Below are positions 45,722 to 58,079 of a DNA stretch of 64,000 nucleotides, in pieces. Origin of the DNA: Limnochorda sp. L945t (lineage in GTDB: Bacteria; Bacillota; Limnochordia; Limnochordales; Geochordaceae); contig NZ_CP141615.1 of NCBI RefSeq assembly GCF_035593305.1, positions 1-64,000 of the forward strand, given 5' to 3'. Each line of letters starts with the position of its first letter. The stretch's first letter is position 1. The position numbers were made by a program, and so were the translations under genes. The notes under the pieces are model-generated. The model did not search any database and had not been told where the DNA came from. It worked only from the letters and a program-made list of their open reading frames with translations.

Positions 45722-46426
45722 TCACGCAGCCCGGCGCTGCTCGCAGGCCAGTTGGACGGCGTCGAGCAGCGACCACAGCACGTCGCACTTGAACTCCAGG
45801 GCCGCCACGCACCGTTCCTGGTCCTCGCGGGTGCGGGCGTGCTGCAGTACCAGCGACAGCCCGTGCTGCACATCCCGCCGCGCCTGGCTGAGCCGGCTCT
45901 CGGAGTACCGGTACCCCTCGGGCCGGATCCACGGGTAGTGGCGCCGGAAGGCCTCGAGCCGGGCCTCGTGGATGCCGGGCGCAAAGAGCTCGGTGAGGGA
46001 GGCCGCCACGCCCTCGAGCCACGGTCGCTCCCGCACGAAGGTGACGTAAGCGTCCACCGCGAACCGTACCCCCGGCAGCAGGAAACGGTCCGACCAGAGG
46101 TCGTCCCGCTCCAGCCCTGCCGCCTCGCCCATCATGACCCACAGCTCCAAGCCGCCCTCGTTGCCCTCCCGTCCATCCTGGTCGATGATGCGCTGCAGCC
46201 AGAGCCTGCGGTCTTCCCGGGTCGGGAGCTTGGACAGCAGGATCCCGTCTTTGACGGGCACGTTCTTCTGGTAGTAGAACCGGTTGGCTATCCACAAGCG
46301 CATGTCGTTGGGGGACAGCTGCCCGGCGTGCATCCTCTGGTTGAACGGATGCAGGTGGTGATAGCGCCGTTCCCCGACGGCCCGCAGCCTCGCCTCGAAC
46401 TCCGCGGCCGGCCATGGCTGGCTCAT
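45722..46426 (-). CDS. pqqC: Pyrroloquinoline-quinone synthase
   Basis: Catalyses the last oxidative ring-closure step of PQQ. The 234 residues show the helical-bundle family signature HHLHPFNQRMHAGQL, LWIANRFYYQKNVPVKDGIL, DGREGNEGGLELWVMMGEA, RFAVDAYVTFVRERPW, LTELFAPGIHEARL and LEFKCDVLWSLLDAV. Family length is about 240-250. The ATG overlaps the pqqB stop (ATGA). Last gene of the operon. Confidence 0.93.
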   Translation of the reverse strand: MSQPWPAAEFEARLRAVGERRYHHLHPFNQRMHAGQLSPNDMRLWIANRFYYQKNVPVKDGILLSKLPTREDRRLWLQRIIDQDGREGNEGGLELWVMMGEAAGLERDDLWSDRFLLPGVRFAVDAYVTFVRERPWLEGVAASLTELFAPGIHEARLEAFRRHYPWIRPEGYRYSESRLSQARRDVQHGLSLVLQHARTREDQERCVAALEFKCDVLWSLLDAVQLACEQRRAA

Positions 46427-47346
46427 AGTTCGACCTCCCAACCGTCTTCGGCGATGTCCAGCCCGGCCTCCCGAAGCCTTCGCCGCTCCGGCGACGAGGG
46501 ATCCAGGGCCGGGTTGGTGTTGTTGACGTGAACGTAAAGCTTCCACCGCGCAGGCAATTCGCCGAACCACCGGGCCGTACCGTGGCTGCCGTTCATCGGG
46601 GCATGATCCATGTCGGCCGCGGTGCGGTGGGCGACTCCGAGGCGGATGAGTTCGTCCTCGTCCCAGAGCGTGCCGTCCAGCAGCACGACGTCGGCCTGTT
46701 CGAGCTGTGCTCGGAGGGAGGCCTCGAGCCGGCGCAGCCCTGGAGCGTAGACCAGCCGTCGGCCGGTAGCCGGGTTGGTCAACGTGAAGGCGACGACCGC
46801 TCCCGGCGCAGGCGCGCCGGACAAGGCTTGCGCGTAGACGGGCAGTCGCCGAGAGACCTCCGTGGCGAGCACCTGGACGCTTGCGCCCGGTGCACGCTCA
46901 GGCGGGAGCATGAACGCCCTGTCCACCGGCATGGCCCTCACCTGCAGCTCTGAGGAGTAAGCGCGCAGGATGGGAAGCACCGGATAGACGCTCTCGAGCA
47001 CGTGGAGGACGGCAGGAGTGGCCCACAGCGTCCAACGAGCGTTTTCTCGCAGGTTCAGCAGCCCGAGGGTATGGTCGAGTTCGGCATCGGTCAGCAGGAC
47101 GCCGCGAAGCGGGGTGTCCCGGATGCCAGGCCCCGGCGCCAGCGCCCGGAAATGCGCCATCTGCTCGCGGACGTCCGGCGTTGCGTTGATCAGGTACCAC
47201 GCTGCGCCATCGGGAGAGACGGCCAGCGAGGATTGGAGACGGCGGCCGGACGGGCCGGCGGCCCGAGCACGGCGGCAGTTGGCGCAGTTGCAGTTCCACT
47301 GGGGGAGACCACCGCCCGCGGTCGTCCCGAGCACCCGGATCCTCAT
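46423..47346 (-). CDS. pqqB: PQQ biosynthesis protein PqqB (metallo-beta-lactamase fold)
   Basis: Hydroxylase-type member of the metallo-hydrolase fold, acting on a PQQ intermediate. The 307 residues carry RVLGTTAGGGLPQWNCNCAN (with the Cys cluster), WYLINATPDVREQM, VLLTDAELDHTLGLLNLRE, LLDGTLWDEDELI, HAPMNGSHG and VHVNNTNPALDPSSPER, all PqqB hallmarks. The ATG overlaps pqqE by 4 bases. Confidence 0.95.
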   Translation of the reverse strand: MRIRVLGTTAGGGLPQWNCNCANCRRARAAGPSGRRLQSSLAVSPDGAAWYLINATPDVREQMAHFRALAPGPGIRDTPLRGVLLTDAELDHTLGLLNLRENARWTLWATPAVLHVLESVYPVLPILRAYSSELQVRAMPVDRAFMLPPERAPGASVQVLATEVSRRLPVYAQALSGAPAPGAVVAFTLTNPATGRRLVYAPGLRRLEASLRAQLEQADVVLLDGTLWDEDELIRLGVAHRTAADMDHAPMNGSHGTARWFGELPARWKLYVHVNNTNPALDPSSPERRRLREAGLDIAEDGWEVEL

Positions 47347-48506
47347 GAGAAAGCGCCCGCCTTTCCGGGGCCCGGATACGTGCGGTAAAGAGGCTTCGCC
47401 GGCCGGGGGCTGCTGGCCGGCGAGGGTCGCGGGGATGCAGCGTCGAGACCCCTGTGCGGGCTGGTTGCCGCGACGACTCGCTCGTGGTGCGGCGAGAAGG
47501 CGCAGGCCGGATCCGTCGCCTCAGGATCGCCCGTGAGCAGAAACGCCTGGCAGCGGCAGCCGCCGAAATCCTCGAACCGGCGTGCACAGCTCCGGCACGG
47601 CTCCTGCATCCAGTCAAACCCACGAAATCTCTGGAACGCCGGGGAATCGTACCAGATCCAGTCCAGCGTCGCCTCGGTGGCAAGCGGTGGGTCCAGGCCG
47701 GGCAGGACGTAGGCCACCGGGCACGGTAGCGCCCGCCCGTCGGGGGCCACCGTCAGCTGAAGGCGCCCCCAGCCGCCCATGCACGGCTTGGGGCGGCCCT
47801 CGTGGTAGTCGGGGATGACCCAAAGGATCTCGAGGGAGCTGCCCCGGGCTCGAAAGGCGTCGACCTCTCTCTCGGCTCTCTCCAGGGTAGCCCGGTCCGG
47901 CATCAGGAAGGCGCGGTTGGCAAGCGCCCACCCGTAAAACTGCGTGTTGGCGAGCTCCAGGCGCTCGGCTCCGAGCGCGTCCGCCATCTCCATGAGCTCC
48001 CGGACCTGGCCGAGGTTGTGGCGATGGAGCACCACGTTGAGGGACAAGGGGAGGCCCGCCTCTCGAACGAGCGTGGCGGCAGCTACCTTCTCCTCCCAAA
48101 ACTCGCCACCCGCAATCTCCCGGGCGAGGGACGGGTCGGCCGCCTGAAAGCTCAGCTGAACCGCGCCCAACCCGGCATCCTTGAGTTCCCCCACCCTGCG
48201 TTGGGACAGGCCCACTCCGCTGGTGATGAGATTGGTGTACAGTCCCTCTTCCGAAGCCACCCGCACGAGCTCGGCCAGGTCACGGCGCAAGAGCGGCTCA
48301 CCGCCGGATAGGTGCAGCTGGAGCACGCCGAGCCGCGCCGCCTGGCGAAAGATGCGGGCCCACGCACGGGTGTCCAGCTCCGCGGAGCGAGCGACGAGTT
48401 GGACGGGGTTGGAGCAGTAAACGCACTGCAGCGGGCATCGGTGGGTGAGTTCGGCCAGCATGGCCATCGGCGGGGCCACAGGGCGGGGCGTCCGAGCGCC
48501 CGCCAT
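47343..48506 (-). CDS. pqqE: PqqA peptide cyclase, radical SAM enzyme PqqE
   Basis: Links the Glu and Tyr side chains of PqqA. The radical SAM cluster motif is CPLQCVYC (C-x3-C-x2-C), with LHLSGGEPLLRRDL next. The C-terminal SPASM region has CMGGWGRLQLTVAPDGRALP, PCRSCARRFEDFGGCRCQAF and the Cys in ATDPACAFSPHH, matching the auxiliary Fe-S sites. ATG 48506 forms a TGATG overlap with pqqD; upstream ATGs at 48533 and 48524 are possible. A Pro/Ser-rich tail of ~35 residues is unusual. Confidence 0.95.
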   Translation of the reverse strand: MAGARTPRPVAPPMAMLAELTHRCPLQCVYCSNPVQLVARSAELDTRAWARIFRQAARLGVLQLHLSGGEPLLRRDLAELVRVASEEGLYTNLITSGVGLSQRRVGELKDAGLGAVQLSFQAADPSLAREIAGGEFWEEKVAAATLVREAGLPLSLNVVLHRHNLGQVRELMEMADALGAERLELANTQFYGWALANRAFLMPDRATLERAEREVDAFRARGSSLEILWVIPDYHEGRPKPCMGGWGRLQLTVAPDGRALPCPVAYVLPGLDPPLATEATLDWIWYDSPAFQRFRGFDWMQEPCRSCARRFEDFGGCRCQAFLLTGDPEATDPACAFSPHHERVVAATSPHRGLDAASPRPSPASSPRPAKPLYRTYPGPGKAGAFS

Positions 48507-48790
48507 CACCCCGGCAGCACCCATTCCACCCACCCTCTCTTTGTCGCCTCCTGGAGGAAAGCCATGACGTCGTCGCCCACTTCGGCGCTCGGGTAGCGCT
48601 GCTTCAACTCGGCGATGAGGGCGCGGGTGGTACGGTTGCCGTCGCAGCAGGCAAGGACGGCGGCGGCCGTTTCGTTGAGGACGATGACCTTCTCGGGCAT
48701 CAAGAGCACGTGACGACGGCGCACGCTGTCCCAGCGCAAGCGAACTCTACGGGCCAACCTGGGCCTGGCCCATGCGTTGGTGGCGTCCAT
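48506..48790 (-). CDS. pqqD: PqqA-binding chaperone PqqD (RRE domain)
   Basis: 94-residue RiPP recognition element that presents PqqA to PqqE. Motifs are PRLARRVRLRWDSVRRRHVL, LMPEKVIVLNETAAAVLACC and the YPSAEVGDDVMAFLQEATKR helix, with the full family length. It lies between pqqA and pqqE and is translationally coupled to pqqE. Confidence 0.93.
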   Translation of the reverse strand: MDATNAWARPRLARRVRLRWDSVRRRHVLLMPEKVIVLNETAAAVLACCDGNRTTRALIAELKQRYPSAEVGDDVMAFLQEATKRGWVEWVLPG

Positions 48791-49227: not shown

Positions 49228-49968
49228 TCAGCCTTGCCAGAGCCATCTTCGTTCCGAGGAGGCGATACGGAATTCCCCGGGCACGGTGATGGTCGCACGG
49301 TCCAACCGGACCTTTCCCTGCCGGCGAAGCCGCTGCAGCGCGCGGTTGGCCGAAGGGACGCTCTTGCCGCTCAACATGGCGATCTGCTCGCGCACCACCG
49401 GCAGCTTGACGGCGACCTCGGAACTGCGGCCGTTGCCCAGAGCCTCCGCCAGCGAATGCAGGGTGAAGGCCACCGCCTGGTCAGCCTCGCTCGAGAAAAT
49501 GAGACACTGCTCCACCGCCACCAGGAACCTTTGCTGGAGCTGGGAGAAGAGCAGCCGCATCATGGCCGGATCCGAATCCAGCGCTGCGCAGAAGTCCTCG
49601 TAGTCAAAGAGCAAGAGCCGCGCATCGGTGATGGCGCTGAAAAGCACCGTGGTGCTCGGGAAGCTTTGCGCGATACGAGCGATACCGATGACGCTGCCCG
49701 GCTTGACCAGCTCGGTACCGCGCGCCTGGCCGTGTTGTGTGACCAGCGCCACTGCCCCGATGCCGTCCTCGACGATGCCGATGGATTCCCCCGGGCCGAT
49801 CTGCAGCGGATAGTCCCGGTTGTGCCGGCACTCCAGCACCCGCGGGCTCTTGCAGCGGGCGAGGGCCAGCTGCAGGAGCTCCCGGTTGGCGTCCGGAAGG
49901 CGCTCTTCTTCGAGGAAAGCTTGCTGCACGGCATCCGCCTCCTGGTGGCTGCGCTTTCCAAAGCCCAT
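49228..49968 (-). CDS. Crp/Fnr family transcriptional regulator
   Basis: 246 residues. The N-terminal cyclic-nucleotide-type beta barrel (~30-135) is followed by the dimer helix (LFSQLQQRFLVAVEQCLIF). A winged HTH closes the protein: LPVVREQIAMLSGKSVPSAN, RALQRLRRQGKVRLDRATI. The barrel lacks an obvious cAMP-binding RxS motif and no Fe-S cysteine set is present, so the signal is unknown. ATG 49968 is chosen because the upstream in-frame region is low-complexity. It could control the permease/decarboxylase genes on the same strand or pqq. Confidence 0.85.
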   Translation of the reverse strand: MGFGKRSHQEADAVQQAFLEEERLPDANRELLQLALARCKSPRVLECRHNRDYPLQIGPGESIGIVEDGIGAVALVTQHGQARGTELVKPGSVIGIARIAQSFPSTTVLFSAITDARLLLFDYEDFCAALDSDPAMMRLLFSQLQQRFLVAVEQCLIFSSEADQAVAFTLHSLAEALGNGRSSEVAVKLPVVREQIAMLSGKSVPSANRALQRLRRQGKVRLDRATITVPGEFRIASSERRWLWQG

Positions 49969-50050
49969 TCTACCATCGGGAGGCCTGCGGGGTCCCGGAG
50001 GAGCGGGGCGGCCGGAGGCGTCGTGGCGCCTCGACGCCGCCCCCACACCT

Positions 50051-51574
50051 TCATGCCTGTGACTGGGACCGGCTTGCCCACCAGCGCGCGGTGTACATGA
50101 CGACGGCCGCTCCCAGCCAGCCCAGCGCGTACTGCGGCGCCGCGGCCCAGCCGAAGCGGGCCGAGTGCAACAGGCCCAGCCAGGAAAGGCCCGCCGCCAC
50201 CAGGCACCAGGCGGCCGCCTTCTCGAAGTGACGGTCGATCAGCTCGGTGACAGAAGCGCTGACGATCAGGACCAGGAAGAGGAAGCCGTTGCCCAGCCCC
50301 TGGATGGAGGCCCAATAAACGGAGCGGTTGAGCGCCTGGGTCACGGCAGGGTCGGCCGCCGACAGCCCGAGTGCCGGCAGCACGGAGTTGAGGGCGCTCA
50401 TCACCACCACGCCGGCCGGGATCACGAACCCCAGCAGGACGGCATTGTGGTAGTTTCTGGGCACCCGTCCCAGGGTCGCCATGCCGACCCCGATGGCTAC
50501 GTAGGCGATCATGGCCGCGAGGATCGGCCAGGGGAAGAGCTGGCTCGTGAACATCGCCAGCCCCAGCGAAACGATGGGCAGGAAGACCACCGGCGTCCAG
50601 ACCTGGAAGCCGATGCGTGCCCCCATCGCCTTGTACGGCGGGTGCAGGGCGTAGACCACCGGCGTGATGATGCTGCCTGCCAGGCCGCAGACCAGCGTAC
50701 CCAGGCCGTCCCAGAAGACGACCCACCGGGCGTCGTACTCGTCGCCTGCGGACGCTCCGCCTTCGACTGCCGCGATGTCCTGCAGCACCTGGTAGACCGC
50801 CATGGGGATCACCACGGAGAAGAAGGGGGCCACCTTGGGAAGCGCCTGGAGCAGCCCCAGGGAGACCGCCCATGGCACCGTCGGCGCGATCCCCTGCCAG
50901 GTCGGACGCACGTAGCCGATGGCCAGCCCGATGGCCAGCGGGATGAGCCACACTACCAGAAACGGCGGAATGCCCCAGCGGGTGACGCGCAGCCGCGCCA
51001 GGACTGCCGCGGAGACGATGGCCAGGGCCACCAGTCCGACGATGGGGTTGTCGAACAGGCGCTGGAGCAGGATCAGGGCGAGGTAGCTGTACATCGCGGT
51101 GCCGAACACCGTCATGGAGGCCGGTACCGGGATGATGGCTCGCAACCTCCTGGCAAAGGGTGCCATGGCGAGCTTGATGAGGCCGGTCCAGATCACGGCA
51201 GCCGCGGCGATCTCCCAGGCCAGCACCGGATCGTGCTGATCCAGGTAGACCGGCAGCATGATGGAGAGGGTGTAGGCCAGGATGGCAGGCACGTTGTTCC
51301 CGTAGACGTGCGAGGTGACGTCGGACCGCGCCTGCCGGCGACCGAGCTGGATCCCGAGGAAAGCCAGGCCCAGGGAGCCGACCAGGAAGCCCAGGGCGTA
51401 CCCCGGCAAGAGGTGCGTCGTGCTGAAGGCCGCCGAGATACCGGCAGGCAGCAAGAGAAAGACGGGAATGATCATCTGTGCCAGGTTGAGCCCCACTTGC
51501 GCCACCGTGGCGTCGACGTCGCCGCGGGTAAGGGCCCACCACCGCGTGAGTGGTTGAGCGGACTGCATGCTCAC
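50051..51574 (-). CDS. NCS2-like (xanthine/uracil-type) permease
   Basis: 507 residues with about 12-14 membrane spans. Repeated features: LAQMIIPVFLLLPAGISAAF, DVTSHVYGNNVPAILAYTLS, IIPVPASMTVFGTAMYSYLA, and VVIPMAVYQVLQDIAAVEGG with the acidic site in the eighth-helix region. The fold and inverted-repeat layout fit NCS2 or a related APC-superfamily permease. The substrate is unknown; context suggests an aromatic or cyclic acid. GTG 51574 or ATG 51568 follow AGGTGGGGG. Confidence 0.7.
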   Translation of the reverse strand: MSMQSAQPLTRWWALTRGDVDATVAQVGLNLAQMIIPVFLLLPAGISAAFSTTHLLPGYALGFLVGSLGLAFLGIQLGRRQARSDVTSHVYGNNVPAILAYTLSIMLPVYLDQHDPVLAWEIAAAAVIWTGLIKLAMAPFARRLRAIIPVPASMTVFGTAMYSYLALILLQRLFDNPIVGLVALAIVSAAVLARLRVTRWGIPPFLVVWLIPLAIGLAIGYVRPTWQGIAPTVPWAVSLGLLQALPKVAPFFSVVIPMAVYQVLQDIAAVEGGASAGDEYDARWVVFWDGLGTLVCGLAGSIITPVVYALHPPYKAMGARIGFQVWTPVVFLPIVSLGLAMFTSQLFPWPILAAMIAYVAIGVGMATLGRVPRNYHNAVLLGFVIPAGVVVMSALNSVLPALGLSAADPAVTQALNRSVYWASIQGLGNGFLFLVLIVSASVTELIDRHFEKAAAWCLVAAGLSWLGLLHSARFGWAAAPQYALGWLGAAVVMYTARWWASRSQSQA

Positions 51575-51697: not shown

Positions 51698-52690
51698 TCA
51701 GATCTTGAACGACTCCAGCGTCTCCGGGGCGAAGAGGTCCCGGGGCTGGAGCAGGCGCTTGGACAGCCCCTGCTCGTACGAGTAGCGCAGGAAGACCGCC
51801 AACGTTGCCTCGTTGGCCTCGAACCCGTAGGGCCAGAAATCCCGGCCCATGACGGCACGCGTCTCTTCCACGTGCGAAGTGAGCCAGGGAAGCATGAGCT
51901 TGAGGGCAGCGGTTTGGTAGAGGTCCGCGTAGGCCTCCTGCTGGGCCTGGGCCAGCGCCTTCATCAGCGACTGCGCCACCCACGGGTGCTTCTCGTAGAC
52001 GTCGCGGCGGATGACCACGGTGTGCATGATGGGGAAGATGCGCGTCTTCTGGAAGTACGCCTGCTCGACTTCCTTGTAGTTGGGGAATAGCCGCCGGACG
52101 TTCTGCGAGCCCCGCGCGAAGCACGAGGGCATGCGCGCTGTGTAAAGGGCGTCGATCTCGCCGCTGTCGAGCATGGCCGAGAGCGTCTTCTCGGGCCCGA
52201 TGGGGTGGACGTGGATGTTGCTCGGCAGATCCAGGCGGAGCTTCTCCGGGCGGCCGGGCTCCTCTTCGCCGCCGGTGAAGTACTCCACGCTGTCCACGGG
52301 TACGCCGTATTCGTCGGACAGGATCCCGCGAATCCAGACGCCGGCCGTCATCTGGTACTCGGGCGTTCCGACGCGCTTTCCGATCAAGTCGTTGGGCTCG
52401 CGGATGCCGCTATGGCTGTTGACGTAGATGCAGGAGTGGCGGAAAAAGCGCGACGGAAAAACCGGGATGGCGATGAACGGCGGGTTGTCGCTGAACAGCG
52501 ATACCACGTACGACGACAGGGACATCTCCGCGGCATCGAATTCCCGGTGCCGCAGCATCCGGAAGAAGGTCTCCTCGACCGGCAGCGGAAGGTACGTCAG
52601 GTCGATTCCGTCGGGTCTGATGCGTCCCTCCTGCAATGCACGGGTACGATCGTAGTTCCAGCAGGCCATGGTCAGCTGAAGGTTGCCCAT
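51698..52690 (-). CDS. 4,5-dihydroxyphthalate decarboxylase-like / NMT1-fold protein, cytoplasmic
   Basis: 330 residues with no signal peptide, hence probably an enzyme or soluble receptor in the cytoplasm. The sequence starts LQLTMACWNYDRTRALQEGR, IRPDGIDLTYLP and has FDAAEMSLSSYVVSLFSDNP, FIAIPVFPSRFFRHSCIYVN, GKRVGTPEYQMTAGVWIRGI and RRLFPNYKEVEQAYFQKTRI, IFPIMHTVVIRRD, the pattern of the Pht5-type decarboxylase family. ATG 52690 follows GGGAGAG. It is divergent from the UbiD genes and heads the permease transcript. Confidence 0.78.
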   Translation of the reverse strand: MGNLQLTMACWNYDRTRALQEGRIRPDGIDLTYLPLPVEETFFRMLRHREFDAAEMSLSSYVVSLFSDNPPFIAIPVFPSRFFRHSCIYVNSHSGIREPNDLIGKRVGTPEYQMTAGVWIRGILSDEYGVPVDSVEYFTGGEEEPGRPEKLRLDLPSNIHVHPIGPEKTLSAMLDSGEIDALYTARMPSCFARGSQNVRRLFPNYKEVEQAYFQKTRIFPIMHTVVIRRDVYEKHPWVAQSLMKALAQAQQEAYADLYQTAALKLMLPWLTSHVEETRAVMGRDFWPYGFEANEATLAVFLRYSYEQGLSKRLLQPRDLFAPETLESFKI

Positions 52691-52971: not shown

Positions 52972-52987
52972 TTAGCCCACGCTAATG
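52972..52987. promoter_or_regulatory. TTAGCC-N-GCTAATG palindrome, operator candidate 1
   Basis: TTAGCCCACGCTAATG, an inverted repeat of TTAGC with a 4-base centre, lies 80 bases before the riboflavin kinase start in the 376-base divergent spacer 52691-53066. A copy matching 14 of 16 bases precedes ubiD at 54242. No other feature is recognised in this spacer. Confidence 0.65.
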
Positions 52988-53066: not shown

Positions 53067-53510
53067 TTGGAGCGGATCGTCAGAGGCACGGTGCGGGCCG
53101 GCAACGGGCATGGGACGCAAGCCACGGCCCACGGCTGGTTTCGCAAAGCGGTGGAGGAGCGCTACGGCTTCGTCCCGGAGCTCGGCACGCTGAACGTCCA
53201 GGTGGCGGAGGAAATCCAGAGTCGCTTGGTGCTTTTGGAAGAGCTCCTGGGAAAGGGGACGGTGCTGGTCCCGCCCTCCCGAGCCATCTGTTGCTCCATC
53301 CTGCGCCGTGTGCGGCTGGGGTGCGTCAGCAGCCGGCAAGACGGCTTGGTGGTCCGGCCGCTGGTCGAGGGGTACGACCCCTACAAGGTGGAGATCGTGG
53401 CTCCCGTCCACCTGCGGACGACGTTGGGCCTGGCCGACGGCCAGGAGGTCCTGCTCCGTTTCGACGTCCCGGAGCCGCGGGGCCGATGGACGCTCGCGGA
53501 CAAACCCTGA
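53067..53510 (+). CDS. ribK: CTP-dependent (archaeal-type, DUF120) riboflavin kinase
   Basis: Phosphorylates riboflavin to FMN using CTP in the archaeal family. The 147 residues fit its cradle-loop barrel: RIVRGTVRAGNGHGTQ, GFVPELGTLNVQV, SRAICCSILRRVRLGCV, and the hallmark YDPYKVEIVAPVHLRTTLGL, ADGQEVLLRFDVP. TTG 53067 has GAGGAGGT 9 bases upstream. Bacteria usually use RibF, so this type is uncommon in them. It directly precedes a riboflavin transporter gene and ubiD. Confidence 0.88.
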   Translation: MERIVRGTVRAGNGHGTQATAHGWFRKAVEERYGFVPELGTLNVQVAEEIQSRLVLLEELLGKGTVLVPPSRAICCSILRRVRLGCVSSRQDGLVVRPLVEGYDPYKVEIVAPVHLRTTLGLADGQEVLLRFDVPEPRGRWTLADKP

Positions 53511-53535
53511 TTTGATCCACGGGAGGTGCCGCCGG

Positions 53536-54153
53536 ATGGGAGCGTGCCCGAGGGACATCCAGGAACCGGAGGGGGTTCCGGCAGGAAGGCAGGGAGGAAG
53601 CCGGGAAGGCGGCTGGGTACGGAGCCTCGCTTCGTCGGGGCTACTGGCGGCCATCTCCTTGGTACTTGCGCTGTATGTCCATTTCCCCCTGCTGCCCGTC
53701 GCGCCCTACCTCCTCTACGACCCGAGCGACATCCCCGTGATCCTGGCCGGCTTATGGCTGGGTCCGGGCTGGGTGCTGCCCATCAGCGCCGTGGTGGCGC
53801 TGGCTCTCGGGGCGACGGCGGGCGGCGGCGCGGTGGGCGTGGTCAGCCGGCTGGTGGGGAGCGCCGCCCTGGGAGTGGCGGCGGCGGTCGCGTTCCACCG
53901 CGGCGGGCGCCGGATCGGATTCGCCGGGATGGTGGCCGTCGCAGCCTACACGGCGGCGGAGGTCCTGCTGACCCTCCTCCTGGTGCCGCTCTTCATGGGA
54001 GGGAGCCTGGACGACGCCGTCGCGTTGCTCCTGCCCGTGGTCGTTCCCTTCAACCTTCTGAAGGGCGGCATCAACTTCGCGCTTTGCTCCGTGATCGCCC
54101 GCCAGTTGACCAAGACCCCGGCGGGATTCTCTCTCGGCCGGCGAGCGGACTGA
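53536..54153 (+). CDS. ribU: Riboflavin ECF transporter substrate-binding component
   Basis: 205 residues with five or six membrane spans. Span 1 and loop (SLVLALYVHFPLLPVAPYLL, YDPSDIPVILAGLWLGPGW) match the RibU hallmark FP-(x)-PFLKYDxSDIPxLIAGFxFGP. A basic soluble N-terminus (~30 residues) precedes it. ATG 53536 has GGGAGGTG 7 bases upstream and lies 25 bases after ribK. The shared EcfA/EcfT energising module is not in the window. It would import riboflavin for the kinase. Confidence 0.83.
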   Translation: MGACPRDIQEPEGVPAGRQGGSREGGWVRSLASSGLLAAISLVLALYVHFPLLPVAPYLLYDPSDIPVILAGLWLGPGWVLPISAVVALALGATAGGGAVGVVSRLVGSAALGVAAAVAFHRGGRRIGFAGMVAVAAYTAAEVLLTLLLVPLFMGGSLDDAVALLLPVVVPFNLLKGGINFALCSVIARQLTKTPAGFSLGRRAD

Positions 54154-54239
54154 GGCCAGGGCTTCCTCACGGCATCATTCCTCAAAGAGTAATCAAGTTG
54201 AATAGTTATATGTTAAGCCCTCGGCTCCCGGCACCCCCA

Positions 54240-54257
54240 CATTAGCCTGCGCTAATG
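54240..54257. promoter_or_regulatory. CATTAGC-N4-GCTAATG palindrome, operator candidate 2
   Basis: A perfect 7-base inverted repeat with a CTGC centre lies 66 bases before ubiD. Just upstream is an AT-rich island (54178-54215, with GTTATATGTT) that is unusual for this genome and may contain the promoter. It shares 14 of 16 core bases with the site at 52972. Confidence 0.7.
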
Positions 54258-54322
54258 ATGGTGTTCCACCCGCGATGGTAGTGTTCCGCCGGAAGCAACT
54301 GATTTGAAAGGGGTGTCGTCGG

Positions 54323-55786
54323 TTGGCTGTCCCTCGTTCGACGTGCGAGGCCTTCGACCTCCGCGGATGGCTGGAGAAGGCGGAGCAGATAGGCCAGCTC
54401 AGGCGAGTGGAGAACGCGGAAGCCAGGCTCGAGATCGGCGCCATCTCGGAGCTGAACAGCAAGCGGCGGGGACCGGCCCTCCTGTTTACCAAGGTGCCGG
54501 GTTACCGCGAGGATTTCGGCGTCCTTACCAGTGCCATGCTCAACGCCAGGACGCTGGGGCTCACCCTGGGCATCGACGAAGAGCTGGACAACATCGGCAT
54601 CGTCAACCGGATCGCGAGCATGCTGCGCAAGTGCGAGAGCCATGCCTCGGAGTATCCCATGAAGTGGGTCGACGGCGGGCCCGTGATGGAAAACGTCTTG
54701 CGGGACGACGACGTGGACCTGACGATCTTCCCCACCCCGATCTGGCACGAGCTGGACGGGGGGCCGTTCATCGGCACCGGGTGCGTGCAGATCCACCAGG
54801 ATCCTGAGACCGGCTGGGTCAACGTCGGCACCTACCGGATGCAGCTGCTGGGGAGGAACCTGCTGGGCAATTACATCTCGCCGGGCCACCACGGACACAT
54901 CATCCGCCAGAAGTACTGGAAAGCGGGCAAGCCGGCTCCGGTAGTGGTCAGCTTCGGGCACCACCCGATCTTCCTGCTCATGGGTTCGTCGGACGTTCCC
55001 GCTGGGGTTGACGAGCTCTCCTGGATCGGAGCGATCTACGGGCAGCCGGTTCCGGTGATCCGGGGACCGGTAACAGGACTCCCTATCCCCGCCTGCGCCG
55101 AGATCGCGGTGGAAGGGTGGGCCTACCCGGACAAGCGAATGGCCGAGGGCCCCTTCGGCGAGTTCACGGGCTACTACGCCTCCGGGCAGAAGCAGGAGCC
55201 CTACGTCGAAGTGAAGGCGCTCTACTTCCGCAACCAGCCCATCCTGCTCGGGGCACCGCCCAACCGTCCTCCCAACGACTTCTCGTACTACTTCTCGGTC
55301 ATGCGCGCGGCGGCCGTCCACGAGAGCCTGCGGAAGGCTGGCATTCCCGGCGTCCGGGGCGTCTGGGTGTACGAGGCCGGCGGCGGCCGCATGTTCCTGG
55401 TGACCAGCATATCCCAACAATACGCCGGCCACGCGAGCCAGGCGGCCGCCATCGCCGCCACCTGCCAGGCGGGAGGCCTGATGGCCCGCTATTCCATCGT
55501 CGTGGACGACGACATCGACCCGTCCAACCCCGACGACGTCATCTGGGCTCTGAGCACTCGCTCCGACCCGGCCAGCGACATCGACATTCTGCGGCAGAGC
55601 TGGAGCAACCCCCTGGACCCGATGATTTCCGACGAGGCGAAGGCCAGGGGGCAACTGTGGAATAGCCGGGCGCTCATCAACGCCTGCAAGCCGTTCGACC
55701 GGCTCAAGACCTTCCCGCCCGTGGCGGAGTCGTCGCCGGCCATGCTCAAGGCGACGCGTGAGAAGTGGGCCTGGTTGTTCGAATGA
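54323..55786 (+). CDS. UbiD family (prenyl-FMN-dependent) decarboxylase
   Basis: 487 residues of the UbiD fold. Visible landmarks are FDLRGWLEKAEQIGQLRRVE, SKRRGPALLFTKVPGY, WHELDGGPFIGTGCVQI (prFMN region), VNVGTYRMQLLGRNLLGNYI, SPGHHGHIIRQKYWKAG, and the catalytic loop AEGPFGEFTGYYASGQKQ containing the key Glu. Substrates in the family range from polyprenylbenzoate to phenolic and phthalic acids; lack of quinone-type neighbours other than transport genes suggests catabolism. TTG 54323 has AAAGGGG upstream. UbiX, which makes prenyl-FMN, is not in the window. Confidence 0.93.
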   Translation: MAVPRSTCEAFDLRGWLEKAEQIGQLRRVENAEARLEIGAISELNSKRRGPALLFTKVPGYREDFGVLTSAMLNARTLGLTLGIDEELDNIGIVNRIASMLRKCESHASEYPMKWVDGGPVMENVLRDDDVDLTIFPTPIWHELDGGPFIGTGCVQIHQDPETGWVNVGTYRMQLLGRNLLGNYISPGHHGHIIRQKYWKAGKPAPVVVSFGHHPIFLLMGSSDVPAGVDELSWIGAIYGQPVPVIRGPVTGLPIPACAEIAVEGWAYPDKRMAEGPFGEFTGYYASGQKQEPYVEVKALYFRNQPILLGAPPNRPPNDFSYYFSVMRAAAVHESLRKAGIPGVRGVWVYEAGGGRMFLVTSISQQYAGHASQAAAIAATCQAGGLMARYSIVVDDDIDPSNPDDVIWALSTRSDPASDIDILRQSWSNPLDPMISDEAKARGQLWNSRALINACKPFDRLKTFPPVAESSPAMLKATREKWAWLFE

Positions 55787-55943
55787 GTCAGGGGGTGGCC
55801 TCGGGGCGCCTTTGCAGGGGCCGCGGGGCCACCCGGCCGCAAAGTCACCCGAAAGGCGTGGCGCCGCCCCCATCCCGAACGCACACGACCGGAGCGAAGC
55901 AGCGCATCCAGTCAGACGTCACTGACACGAGGGGGATCCACCA

Positions 55944-57350
55944 TTGCTCACGACGCAAGCCGTCAAGGCTGACCGAAAGCTGCTGTGGCTCGGCACCGGG
56001 GTTCTCCTGGGCCTCATCTTGTGGTTCATGCCCACGCCGGCAGGTTTGACCGTCGCCGGGCAGCACGCCCTGGCGGTCGTGATTTTCACGGTCTTCTTGT
56101 GGGTCTCCGGCGCGGTTCCGACCAGTGTGGGCTCCCTGATGATGATCGGCATCGTGCTTTGTCTGATGCCGAACGAGGTTCCCGCGACCAAGTTTCTCTC
56201 CTTCTGGACTCAGGATACGATGTGGTTCGTCCTCGTTTCTTTCATTTTCAGCGTGGTCATACAGAAGAGCGGGCTCGGCAACCGGCTCGCCATCTACGTG
56301 TTTTCTCTCCGCAACCTGCTGGTGATCGACATTGCCCTGCTCGTCCTCAACGCGCTCTTCTCCGTCGTAGGCATGGCGGCCTCCTTCCCGAAACTCGTGT
56401 TGCTCATGCCTCTGGTCGTCTCGATGGCCGCCCTTTCCGGCATGCCGAAGGAGGATCCGTACGTCCGGCACGTAGCCCTCATGATCAACGTGCTGGCCAA
56501 CCAGACGGGGCTGCTCGTCTACTCCGGCTTCGTGCTCAACCCGGCTCTGGGGCCCCTGGGTGGTTTCCAGCTGGACTACACGAAGTGGCTGCAGTGGTTC
56601 TTCCCTCCGGCCCTGGTGTACACGTTGATATCCTTCGTCGTACTCTACCTCCTCTTCCGCCCGGCGCGTGGCGCGAACGGGTTCGACGTGAAGGTCATAG
56701 AGGAGAAGCGCCGCGAGCTGGGTCCCTTGAGCCGGAAGGAACAGAAGGCCATCGTCTGGCTCGTCGTCGCCGTGGTCCTCTGGGCGACCGGGGGGATGAC
56801 GGGAATCCCCGCGGGCTTCGCGGCCGTCCTGGTAGCCGCCATGCTGATGCTTCCTGGAATCGGCGTGGTGAACTTCAAGGAGTTCGTGCAGGCGACGGAC
56901 TGGAACACGGTCTTCATGCTGATGGGGGTGCTCTCCATCGGGGCCCTGGGCGCCACCGGGTTCGCCAAGTGGCTGTGGGGCCACATCCTGCCCAGTCAAC
57001 TGCCGGGCAACCCCATGGTGGCGCTGGTGCTCATCTCCTTCCTGGTGGAGCTGCTGCACATTCCCCTGGGCAGCCTGGGGACGACGCAGGCGTTGGCCGT
57101 CCCGTCGCTGGCGGCGTACGGGCCGACGGTGGGCATGTCCAGCGAACTGCTGAGCATCGTGGCCTACATGTCCATCGTCGGGCAGTTCTTCTTCGTCTAC
57201 CAGAACGCGGCGCTGGTGGCGGGGCAGGGCTTTGGCCTGTGGAAGCCGAAAGACATACTCAAGTTCGGCGCCGCCATGTTCGTCGTCACGCCCCTGGTGA
57301 TGGGCGTGGTGCTGTTACCGTGGTGGCTGCACATGGGGTGGATCCGGTAA
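55944..57350 (+). CDS. SLC13/DASS-type anion:Na+ symporter
   Basis: 468 residues with about 11-12 membrane spans. Family motifs: GQHALAVVIFTVFLWVSGAV, PTSVGSLMMIGIVLCLMP, FWTQDTMWFVLVSFIFSVVI, the first hairpin region AASFPKLVLLMPLVVSMAAL, NVLANQTGLLVYSGFVLNPA, and LGSLGTTQALAVPSLAAYGP. It would import a di- or tricarboxylate or aromatic acid. TTG 55944 has GAGGGGG upstream. A strong terminator follows 7 bases after the stop. It lies 157 bases after ubiD. Confidence 0.86.
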   Translation: MLTTQAVKADRKLLWLGTGVLLGLILWFMPTPAGLTVAGQHALAVVIFTVFLWVSGAVPTSVGSLMMIGIVLCLMPNEVPATKFLSFWTQDTMWFVLVSFIFSVVIQKSGLGNRLAIYVFSLRNLLVIDIALLVLNALFSVVGMAASFPKLVLLMPLVVSMAALSGMPKEDPYVRHVALMINVLANQTGLLVYSGFVLNPALGPLGGFQLDYTKWLQWFFPPALVYTLISFVVLYLLFRPARGANGFDVKVIEEKRRELGPLSRKEQKAIVWLVVAVVLWATGGMTGIPAGFAAVLVAAMLMLPGIGVVNFKEFVQATDWNTVFMLMGVLSIGALGATGFAKWLWGHILPSQLPGNPMVALVLISFLVELLHIPLGSLGTTQALAVPSLAAYGPTVGMSSELLSIVAYMSIVGQFFFVYQNAALVAGQGFGLWKPKDILKFGAAMFVVTPLVMGVVLLPWWLHMGWIR

Positions 57351-57356
57351 GCGTCC

Positions 57357-57395
57357 GGCCGGGCGCCCGCCCGAGGGAAGGGCGGGCGCCCGGCC
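57357..57395 (+). terminator. Strong GC hairpin after the anion transporter gene
   Basis: Perfect 16-bp stem (GGCCGGGCGCCCGCCC / GGGCGGGCGCCCGGCC) with a 7-base loop beginning 7 bases after the stop. It lacks a long U-run, as is common in this GC-rich window. Confidence 0.7.
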
Positions 57396-57512
57396 CCCTG
57401 GACGAAGGTCGCCAGATGCGGGGACGGGTGGAAAGGAGCCAACGGGGGACGGAGGGTGCGAGGGCGTCTCCAGGCCGGGTTCGGGCAGAGATGACGGGGG
57501 AGGGGGACGGGC

Positions 57513-58079
57513 ATGACGGTCTCGTGGCCAGCCCTGCAGCTTGCCGGAGCGATCGATCGGTTCCTGGCCCTCCCGGGTGCCCGTTACGTCAAGCTCGAAG
57601 GGAGGGCCTTCCACGTATTGCACATCGGTGACGACGGTTACGTGTGGCTCGTCGTTTCCGGCTGGCTGCTAGGCATGCGGGGCAACGCCGAAGGGCGGCT
57701 GAAGGGGACGGGCCTGTTCGGACCGGGCGACCTCCTGGGGATGAGCAGTCTCGGCGGAAACGTGCGGGAGGTGCCGTTCTACAGCATCGGCGAGACCGAG
57801 GTCATCCAGGTGAGCCGGCTCGCGCTCGATCGCGCGGTCGAGAGGGACGATACGCTCTGCCGGTGGCTCTTGAAGTACATGTGCATGCGCTACTCCGAGC
57901 TGCTGGACGAACTCGAGGTGAGCACGCTGTTGCCGCTCCGGCAGCGGATCGAGGCCTTCGAGAGGAAACTGACGCAGAAGATGCCCGTCTCCGTCGAGAG
58001 GCCAGTGCCCCAGACCGTCCTGGCTTGGGCGGTAGGAGGGCACCCGGTCAGCGTCTGCCGCGCGCTCAAGGGCGCGTAG
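57513..58079 (+). CDS. Crp/Fnr-like regulator with shortened DNA-binding end
   Basis: 188 residues. The cyclic-nucleotide-type barrel (~20-110; KLEGRAFHVLHIGDDGYVWL, TGLFGPGDLLGMSSLGGNV) and dimer helix (WLLKYMCMRYSELLDELEV) are complete. The C-terminal part (TVLAWAVGGHPVSVCRALKG) keeps a recognition-helix-like segment but stops before the wing. It could be a naturally short member or a truncated gene. ATG 57513 has GGGGGAGGGGGA upstream. It may bind the TTAGC palindromes or lack DNA binding altogether. Confidence 0.72.
   Translation: MTVSWPALQLAGAIDRFLALPGARYVKLEGRAFHVLHIGDDGYVWLVVSGWLLGMRGNAEGRLKGTGLFGPGDLLGMSSLGGNVREVPFYSIGETEVIQVSRLALDRAVERDDTLCRWLLKYMCMRYSELLDELEVSTLLPLRQRIEAFERKLTQKMPVSVERPVPQTVLAWAVGGHPVSVCRALKGA

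Follow-up and report, generated by a model that had tools for sequence, protein, structure and literature searches.

The window analysed here comprises the first 64 kb of a genome of 3.31 Mb that is assembled in a single contig and is 99% complete (G000 below). On its plus strand, a DUF120 gene is followed by a gene for a RibU-type S-component and then by ubiD. UbiD enzymes need prenylated FMN (prFMN). The initial annotation had read this row as riboflavin importer and kinase genes next to ubiD, and both coordinates and families were confirmed. The features of the locus are as follows:

49228-50046, divergent from duf120: Crp-type regulator
50051-51574, divergent from duf120: permease
51698..52690, minus strand: 4,5-dihydroxyphthalate decarboxylase (Pht5)-like protein; tblastn identity 60-72%
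52972..52985, no strand: candidate operator TTAGCCCACGCTAA, 81 bp upstream of duf120
53067..53510, plus strand: DUF120 / CTP-dependent riboflavin kinase homologue, 147 aa; TTG start; PF01982, 4.2e-17
53536..54153, plus strand: RibU-type ECF transporter S-component, 205 aa; PF12822, 2.7e-13
54242..54255, no strand: second candidate operator TTAGCCTGCGCTAA, 67 bp upstream of ubiD
54323..55786, plus strand: UbiD-family (de)carboxylase, 487 aa; PF01977, PF20695 and PF20696 all above cut-off
55944..57350, plus strand: DASS-family anion transporter; PF00939, 4e-40
57513..58079, plus strand: Crp-like regulator, 188 aa; PF00027, 7e-5, below cut-off

The TTG start of duf120 has a GGAGG-type ribosome-binding site in front. 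Since ubiD is preceded by a 169-bp gap which holds an operator-like palindrome of its own, duf120 with the S-component gene and ubiD are probably two transcription units. A search for sigma-70 promoters found none. The exact sequence TTAGC-N4-GCTAA occurs twice in the whole 3.31-Mb genome (0.8 copies are expected from base composition), upstream of duf120 and upstream of ubiD; the TTAGCCCACGCTAA copy sits between duf120 and the divergent Pht5-like gene. Crp/Fnr operators have this 5-4-5 layout, and the cluster has a Crp-like gene on either side. The palindrome is evidence, albeit not proof, that both units may be co-regulated through it. The palindromes found upstream of the Symbiobacterium genes had no motif in common.

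Both palindromes are kept in Bu05, a Limnochordaceae bacterium MAG matching the window at 96-98%. It has been placed in the species of Carboxydochorda subterranea L945, whose genome is closed (PMC11456536), so that the window probably comes from that isolate. Bu05 (locus L005) is devoid of the window stretches 54662-57769, 49666-50854 and 52367-52471. These three gaps are clean cuts inside genes with ends lacking clear repeats, and are either strain differences or assembly errors. The loss of ubiD in Bu05 as a sign of independence was set aside because other clean in-gene deletions lie within about 6 kb and the MAG is perhaps misassembled.

For the Pht5-like protein, the start was placed at MGNLQL and one tblastn match is annotated as 4,5-dihydroxyphthalate decarboxylase. 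The protein is likely the catabolic partner of the cluster, and its gene suggests an aromatic-acid catabolic cluster at this site; given its 72% identity to proteobacterial plasmid copies, it was probably acquired horizontally. The DASS transporter probably serves the UbiD unit as substrate permease; in the Symbiobacterium loci L073 and L075/L076, ubiD likewise has a DASS gene next to it (tblastn 28-30% in L073/L076). The Crp-like protein encoded at 57513-58079 has its C-terminus directly past the recognition helix. Its gene is possibly truncated; the protein is a candidate regulator or a relic. Further upstream (45722-48790, minus strand), the window of this Bacillota genome contains a PQQ biosynthesis set consisting of pqqE (TIGR02109, 492 bits), pqqD (TIGR03859) and a gene which we take to be pqqC-like.

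UbiD in a genome lacking UbiX

The UbiD of the window is single copy in the host genome, and its residues R172, E275 and E280 occupy the positions of the E-R-E network described for UbiD (PMC5818171). Assignment as phenylphosphate carboxylase subunit beta (TIGR02724) was rejected at 283 bits against a cut-off of 469, as was phthaloyl-CoA decarboxylase (66 bits, 2e-17, far below other UbiDs). Among the closest plasmid relatives is a UbiD of Aromatoleum aromaticum EbN1 plasmid 2 (43%; L084 331-900 and 2373-9422), whose cluster includes idi and UbiX genes; the window is without this canonical supply.

The initial annotation had noted a missing UbiX, which is true of the cluster and of the whole genome: PF02441 matched only CoaBC and dipicolinate synthase subunit B, and nothing in the host genome exceeded the TIGR00421 cut-off. 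Consequently, a UbiX elsewhere in the genome, to provide the prenylation that it had placed outside the cluster, is not supported. The PF02441 match in a 269-aa frame, a UbiX candidate at first sight, is the dipicolinate synthase subunit (DpaB), which adjoins DpaA. Compared with a UbiX-UbiD pair, the UbiD has the same intact domains and E-R-E residues, but the host genome is without any UbiX. Among the 60 relatives in the class, UbiD and UbiX occur in the same six genomes and in no others (Fisher p = 1e-7 for their co-occurrence in the class), which leaves the window genome as the sole UbiD-positive, UbiX-negative genome of 61.

The S-component scores 50.7 bits against PF12822 (cut-off 30.7). 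A profile of six S-component relatives, searched against the PDB, matched among S-components RibU only (5kbw, 1.9e-17; 3p5n, 5.9e-15), and the window protein itself matched TmRibU at 4.8e-16. Thus RibU, the group II ECF riboflavin S-component, is the sole structural match among S-components; however, identity to RibU is 25-28% (44-51% between the window protein and those of Symbiobacterium), and several positions common to TmRibU and SaRibU (VK, GD and N), which may take part in binding, are changed in all six S-components paired with DUF120. Many ribU genes are preceded by an FMN riboswitch, but none was found in the window at 44-64 kb or at the related pair loci.

Three genomes of a second genus (G396, G476 and G496) have the S-component/DUF120 pair as well; we take the first of them to be Symbiobacterium thermophilum. 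UbiX is absent where DUF120 is paired with the S-component in G000, Bu05, G396 and G476, whereas UbiX is present in 9/9 UbiD-positive genomes having DUF120 without the S-component; in G496, the pair is accompanied by a fragment of UbiX that lies at the edge of a contig. Fisher's test for pair against UbiX absence gives p = 0.014 without Bu05, with three of the four genomes from the same genus. The association is suggestive only, because G396, G476 and G496 share a genus and the independent events are few.

Two single cases weigh more than this association. The genome of G396 is one contig of 3,566,135 bases without UbiX, and its one UbiD is the menaquinone decarboxylase (TIGR03701, 680 bits versus 496). 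The locus of G496 has a vdcC-type ubiD with vdcD and without vdcB, i.e. UbiX. The pairs of G476 and G496 are located no more than about 5 kb from ubiD and a DASS gene. At L069 6816-7334 (minus strand), near the menaquinone-type ubiD of G396, a frame reads like another ECF S-component. Other prFMN routes, or gaps in MAGs and drafts, exist as well, since G446 and G454 are UbiD-positive and UbiX-negative without having DUF120.

DUF120 kinases in bacteria and their gene context

The window DUF120 protein scores 62.7 bits against PF01982 (CTP-dep_RFKase, cut-off 25). Together with seven relatives it gave a profile that matched the riboflavin kinase MJ0056 at 2.9e-22, and the solved relatives of this profile are all riboflavin kinases. 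Retained are G12NGHG, G40TLN (G40-T41-L42-N43) and E109; the G, T and N of GTLN and the glutamate are invariant across the aligned relatives. We take GTxN to be the metal motif and the glutamate to be the conserved one of an E-I-x-A-P motif. Archaeal RibK (MJ0056, DUF120, PF01982) has the same domain and the same GTLN and E..AP motifs; in contrast, the window protein is bacterial, 21% identical to MJ0056, accompanied by RibF in its host and tied to UbiD, and its relatives include fusions with UbiX or with LpdD-type domains.

An archaeal-type kinase in a bacterium, to which the initial annotation had drawn attention, was borne out and is rare. DUF120 is present in 1/61 genomes of the host's class (the window genome alone) and in 9/398 Bacillota genomes (phylum); for the class of G396 the count is 7/121. 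In the tree, the DUF120 proteins of the pairs and the fusion protein of G462 form one supported clade (0.98), and the window protein groups with Symbiobacterium (support 0.83). AlphaFold2 models of two sequences had a mean pLDDT of 35 (DUF120) and 45 (S-component) and were discarded.

For the linkage count, one locus per genome was used, only genomes with UbiD were considered and the distance to ubiD or ubiX was limited to ≤ 10 kb. DUF120 fell within this distance in 10/13 Bacillota genomes versus 0.75 expected (P about 4e-12); hence, the linkage recurs and is not unique to the window genome. The following arrangements were found:

G182: phenylphosphate carboxylase-type operon, DUF120 with UbiDs and UbiX
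G265: DUF120, then UbiX
G336: UbiX-DUF120 fusion in two copies; UbiX (248 bits) and DUF120 in one frame
G311, G116: type 2 IPP isomerase, UbiD and a DUF120-HAD fusion
G462: UbiX, then a DUF120-LpdD-type fusion
G378: UbiD cluster 8.6 kb from DUF120
G476: S-component and DUF120 near UbiD and DASS, two copies; one DUF120 is LpdD-fused
G496: S-component and DUF120 near UbiD and DASS; DUF120 fused to an LpdD-type domain
G396: S-component and DUF120 alone
Azoarcus sp. KH32C (pAZKH), outside Bacillota: ppc operon, UbiD-UbiX-DUF120-NUDIX
G078, exception: DUF120 fused to histidine phosphatase, on a 5-kb contig
G486, exception
G509, G534, exceptions: divergent DUF120 in genomes without UbiD

The fusions of G336 are encoded at L032 3576-4595 and L033 1838-2917 (both minus strand); that genome has 26 matches to UbiD. 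At L034 1999-3051 (plus strand), DUF120 is joined to a CobC-like histidine phosphatase. The divergent DUF120s of G509 and G534 (L078 7705-8190 and L077 4427-4936) are located close to ribosomal protein genes; both genomes lack UbiD and UbiX, and these DUF120s may have a different role. The DUF120-HAD arrangement occurs in Archaea too: a Natrinema gelatinilyticum plasmid encodes such a fusion (L029 5995-6918, plus strand) about 14 kb from a UbiD relative.

One genome thus has DUF120 fused to UbiX, and three others have it fused to an LpdD-type domain. The latter, C-terminal domain is PF21758 of the LpdD family, and a stand-alone PF21758 copy (L037) matches LpdD structures at 1e-6. LpdD binds prFMN only in its reduced form and helps to activate UbiD (PMC10865409). 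The fusions therefore tie the kinase to the maker of prFMN and to a chaperone family carrying it. Together with the linkage to ubiD or ubiX and the Azoarcus operon, they make a strong case from gene context that the bacterial DUF120 protein would belong to prFMN metabolism.

The locus resembles known systems in part. The Azoarcus sp. KH32C phenylphosphate carboxylase operon also combines DUF120 with UbiD, but has UbiX directly before DUF120, a NUDIX gene and no S-component. The prFMNH2 chaperone LpdD (L. plantarum; PMC10865409) and the maturase PhdC (PMC13040415) are likewise accessory proteins of UbiD systems. In contrast, the accessories in the window are an importer and a kinase; the Symbiobacterium relatives have the LpdD-family domain fused to the DUF120 kinase, and the window kinase is without such a domain.

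A putative route for prenylated flavin salvage and its alternatives

The host genome encodes an ordinary bifunctional RibF, so riboflavin is already convertible to FMN. Of the cofactor-supply cassette proposed in the initial annotation, a flavin supply tied to UbiD stands, but the supply of plain FMN explains little. The absence of UbiX from the genome points instead to salvage of an already prenylated flavin. Such salvage would explain most simply how UbiD can work without UbiX and why a redundant kinase and a RibU-like importer are present. With a probability of roughly 0.45, we propose that a flavin salvage module lets this UbiX-less bacterium run its UbiD decarboxylase; the imported molecule would be prenylated riboflavin and the phosphate donor CTP.

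In the proposed route, a regulator on the palindrome would induce both units when an aromatic or unsaturated acid is present, and such an acid, the presumed UbiD substrate, would enter via the DASS carrier. Neighbouring cells would shed prFMN in dephosphorylated form, as the source of prenylated riboflavin. The RibU-like S-component, together with a putative EcfAA'T module of the cell, would import this compound, DUF120 would phosphorylate its ribityl 5'-OH, probably with CTP, and the resulting prFMN would load into UbiD. In Symbiobacterium, the LpdD domain fused to the kinase may hand prFMN over.

Against salvage, genomes with UbiX also have DUF120 beside UbiX, without the S-component; there, it would be enough for DUF120 to supply FMN or to repair prFMN that has lost its phosphate. 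The UbiX fragment of G496, which has the pair, and the UbiD-positive, UbiX-negative genomes G446 and G454, which have no DUF120, also speak against it. In the open-access literature, with subscription papers outside the search, no paper was found on prenylated riboflavin with prFMN or riboflavin kinase, and there is no documentation of prenylated riboflavin in the environment.

A dedicated FMN supply, in which riboflavin enters through the RibU-like protein, DUF120 turns it into additional FMN and a so far unrecognised enzyme outside the UbiX family adds the prenyl group, is the main rival, though less likely. It takes the S-component and kinase at their family names of riboflavin importer and riboflavin kinase, and DUF120 beside or fused to UbiX in UbiX-containing genomes would fit FMN made on the spot for UbiX; neighbouring Idi-2, NUDIX or HAD genes could feed dimethylallyl phosphate. 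However, FMN should not be limiting in the presence of RibF, and we know of no second family of flavin prenyltransferases. Furthermore, the S-component/DUF120 pairs occur mainly in UbiX-less genomes, and several RibU-common positions are changed in all six of their S-components.

Repair of prFMN is improbable as the main role. DUF120 would re-phosphorylate prenylated riboflavin made inside the cell by phosphatases, as the fusions with UbiX, LpdD-type and phosphatase domains (HAD, histidine phosphatase) would fit, and the importer of UbiX-less systems would be an ordinary riboflavin transporter; but the prenylation step is left without an account where UbiX is absent.

DUF120 might act on another alcohol, for instance prenol, and feed prenylation with dimethylallyl phosphate, which UbiX uses. 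The Idi-2, HAD and NUDIX neighbours in UbiX-containing genomes speak for this, yet it is very unlikely given that the solved relatives are all riboflavin kinases, the partner transporter is RibU-like and the host has no UbiX to use the product. A chance acquisition of ordinary riboflavin salvage genes, together with ubiD or beside it, would agree with the families of both proteins and with the patchy distribution of DUF120, which suggests horizontal transfer, but has hardly any probability left, being already contradicted by the linkage in 10/13 genomes and also by the UbiX and LpdD-type fusions and the genome-unique palindrome common to both units.

Meaning for prFMN as a cofactor

The part families are known, but it appears to be new that they are combined in a prFMN system, which includes fusions and occurs in genomes without UbiX: nothing was found in the open-access literature linking DUF120 with UbiX, UbiD or prFMN, or on a UbiD without UbiX. 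To our knowledge, prFMN is known only as a product of UbiX made in the cell using it. Even without salvage, bacterial DUF120 proteins would be assigned to prFMN metabolism, and the kinase, transporter and fusion proteins could improve UbiD activation in biotechnology. More broadly, and tentatively, some bacteria may take prFMN as a vitamin, being UbiX-less and using a dedicated ECF S-component and DUF120 as prenyl-riboflavin kinase. If a UbiX-less cell does import and phosphorylate its prFMN in this way, prFMN would be a shared vitamin, UbiD function, even in menaquinone synthesis, would depend on neighbours and one of the dependencies of hard-to-grow bacteria would have a concrete candidate.
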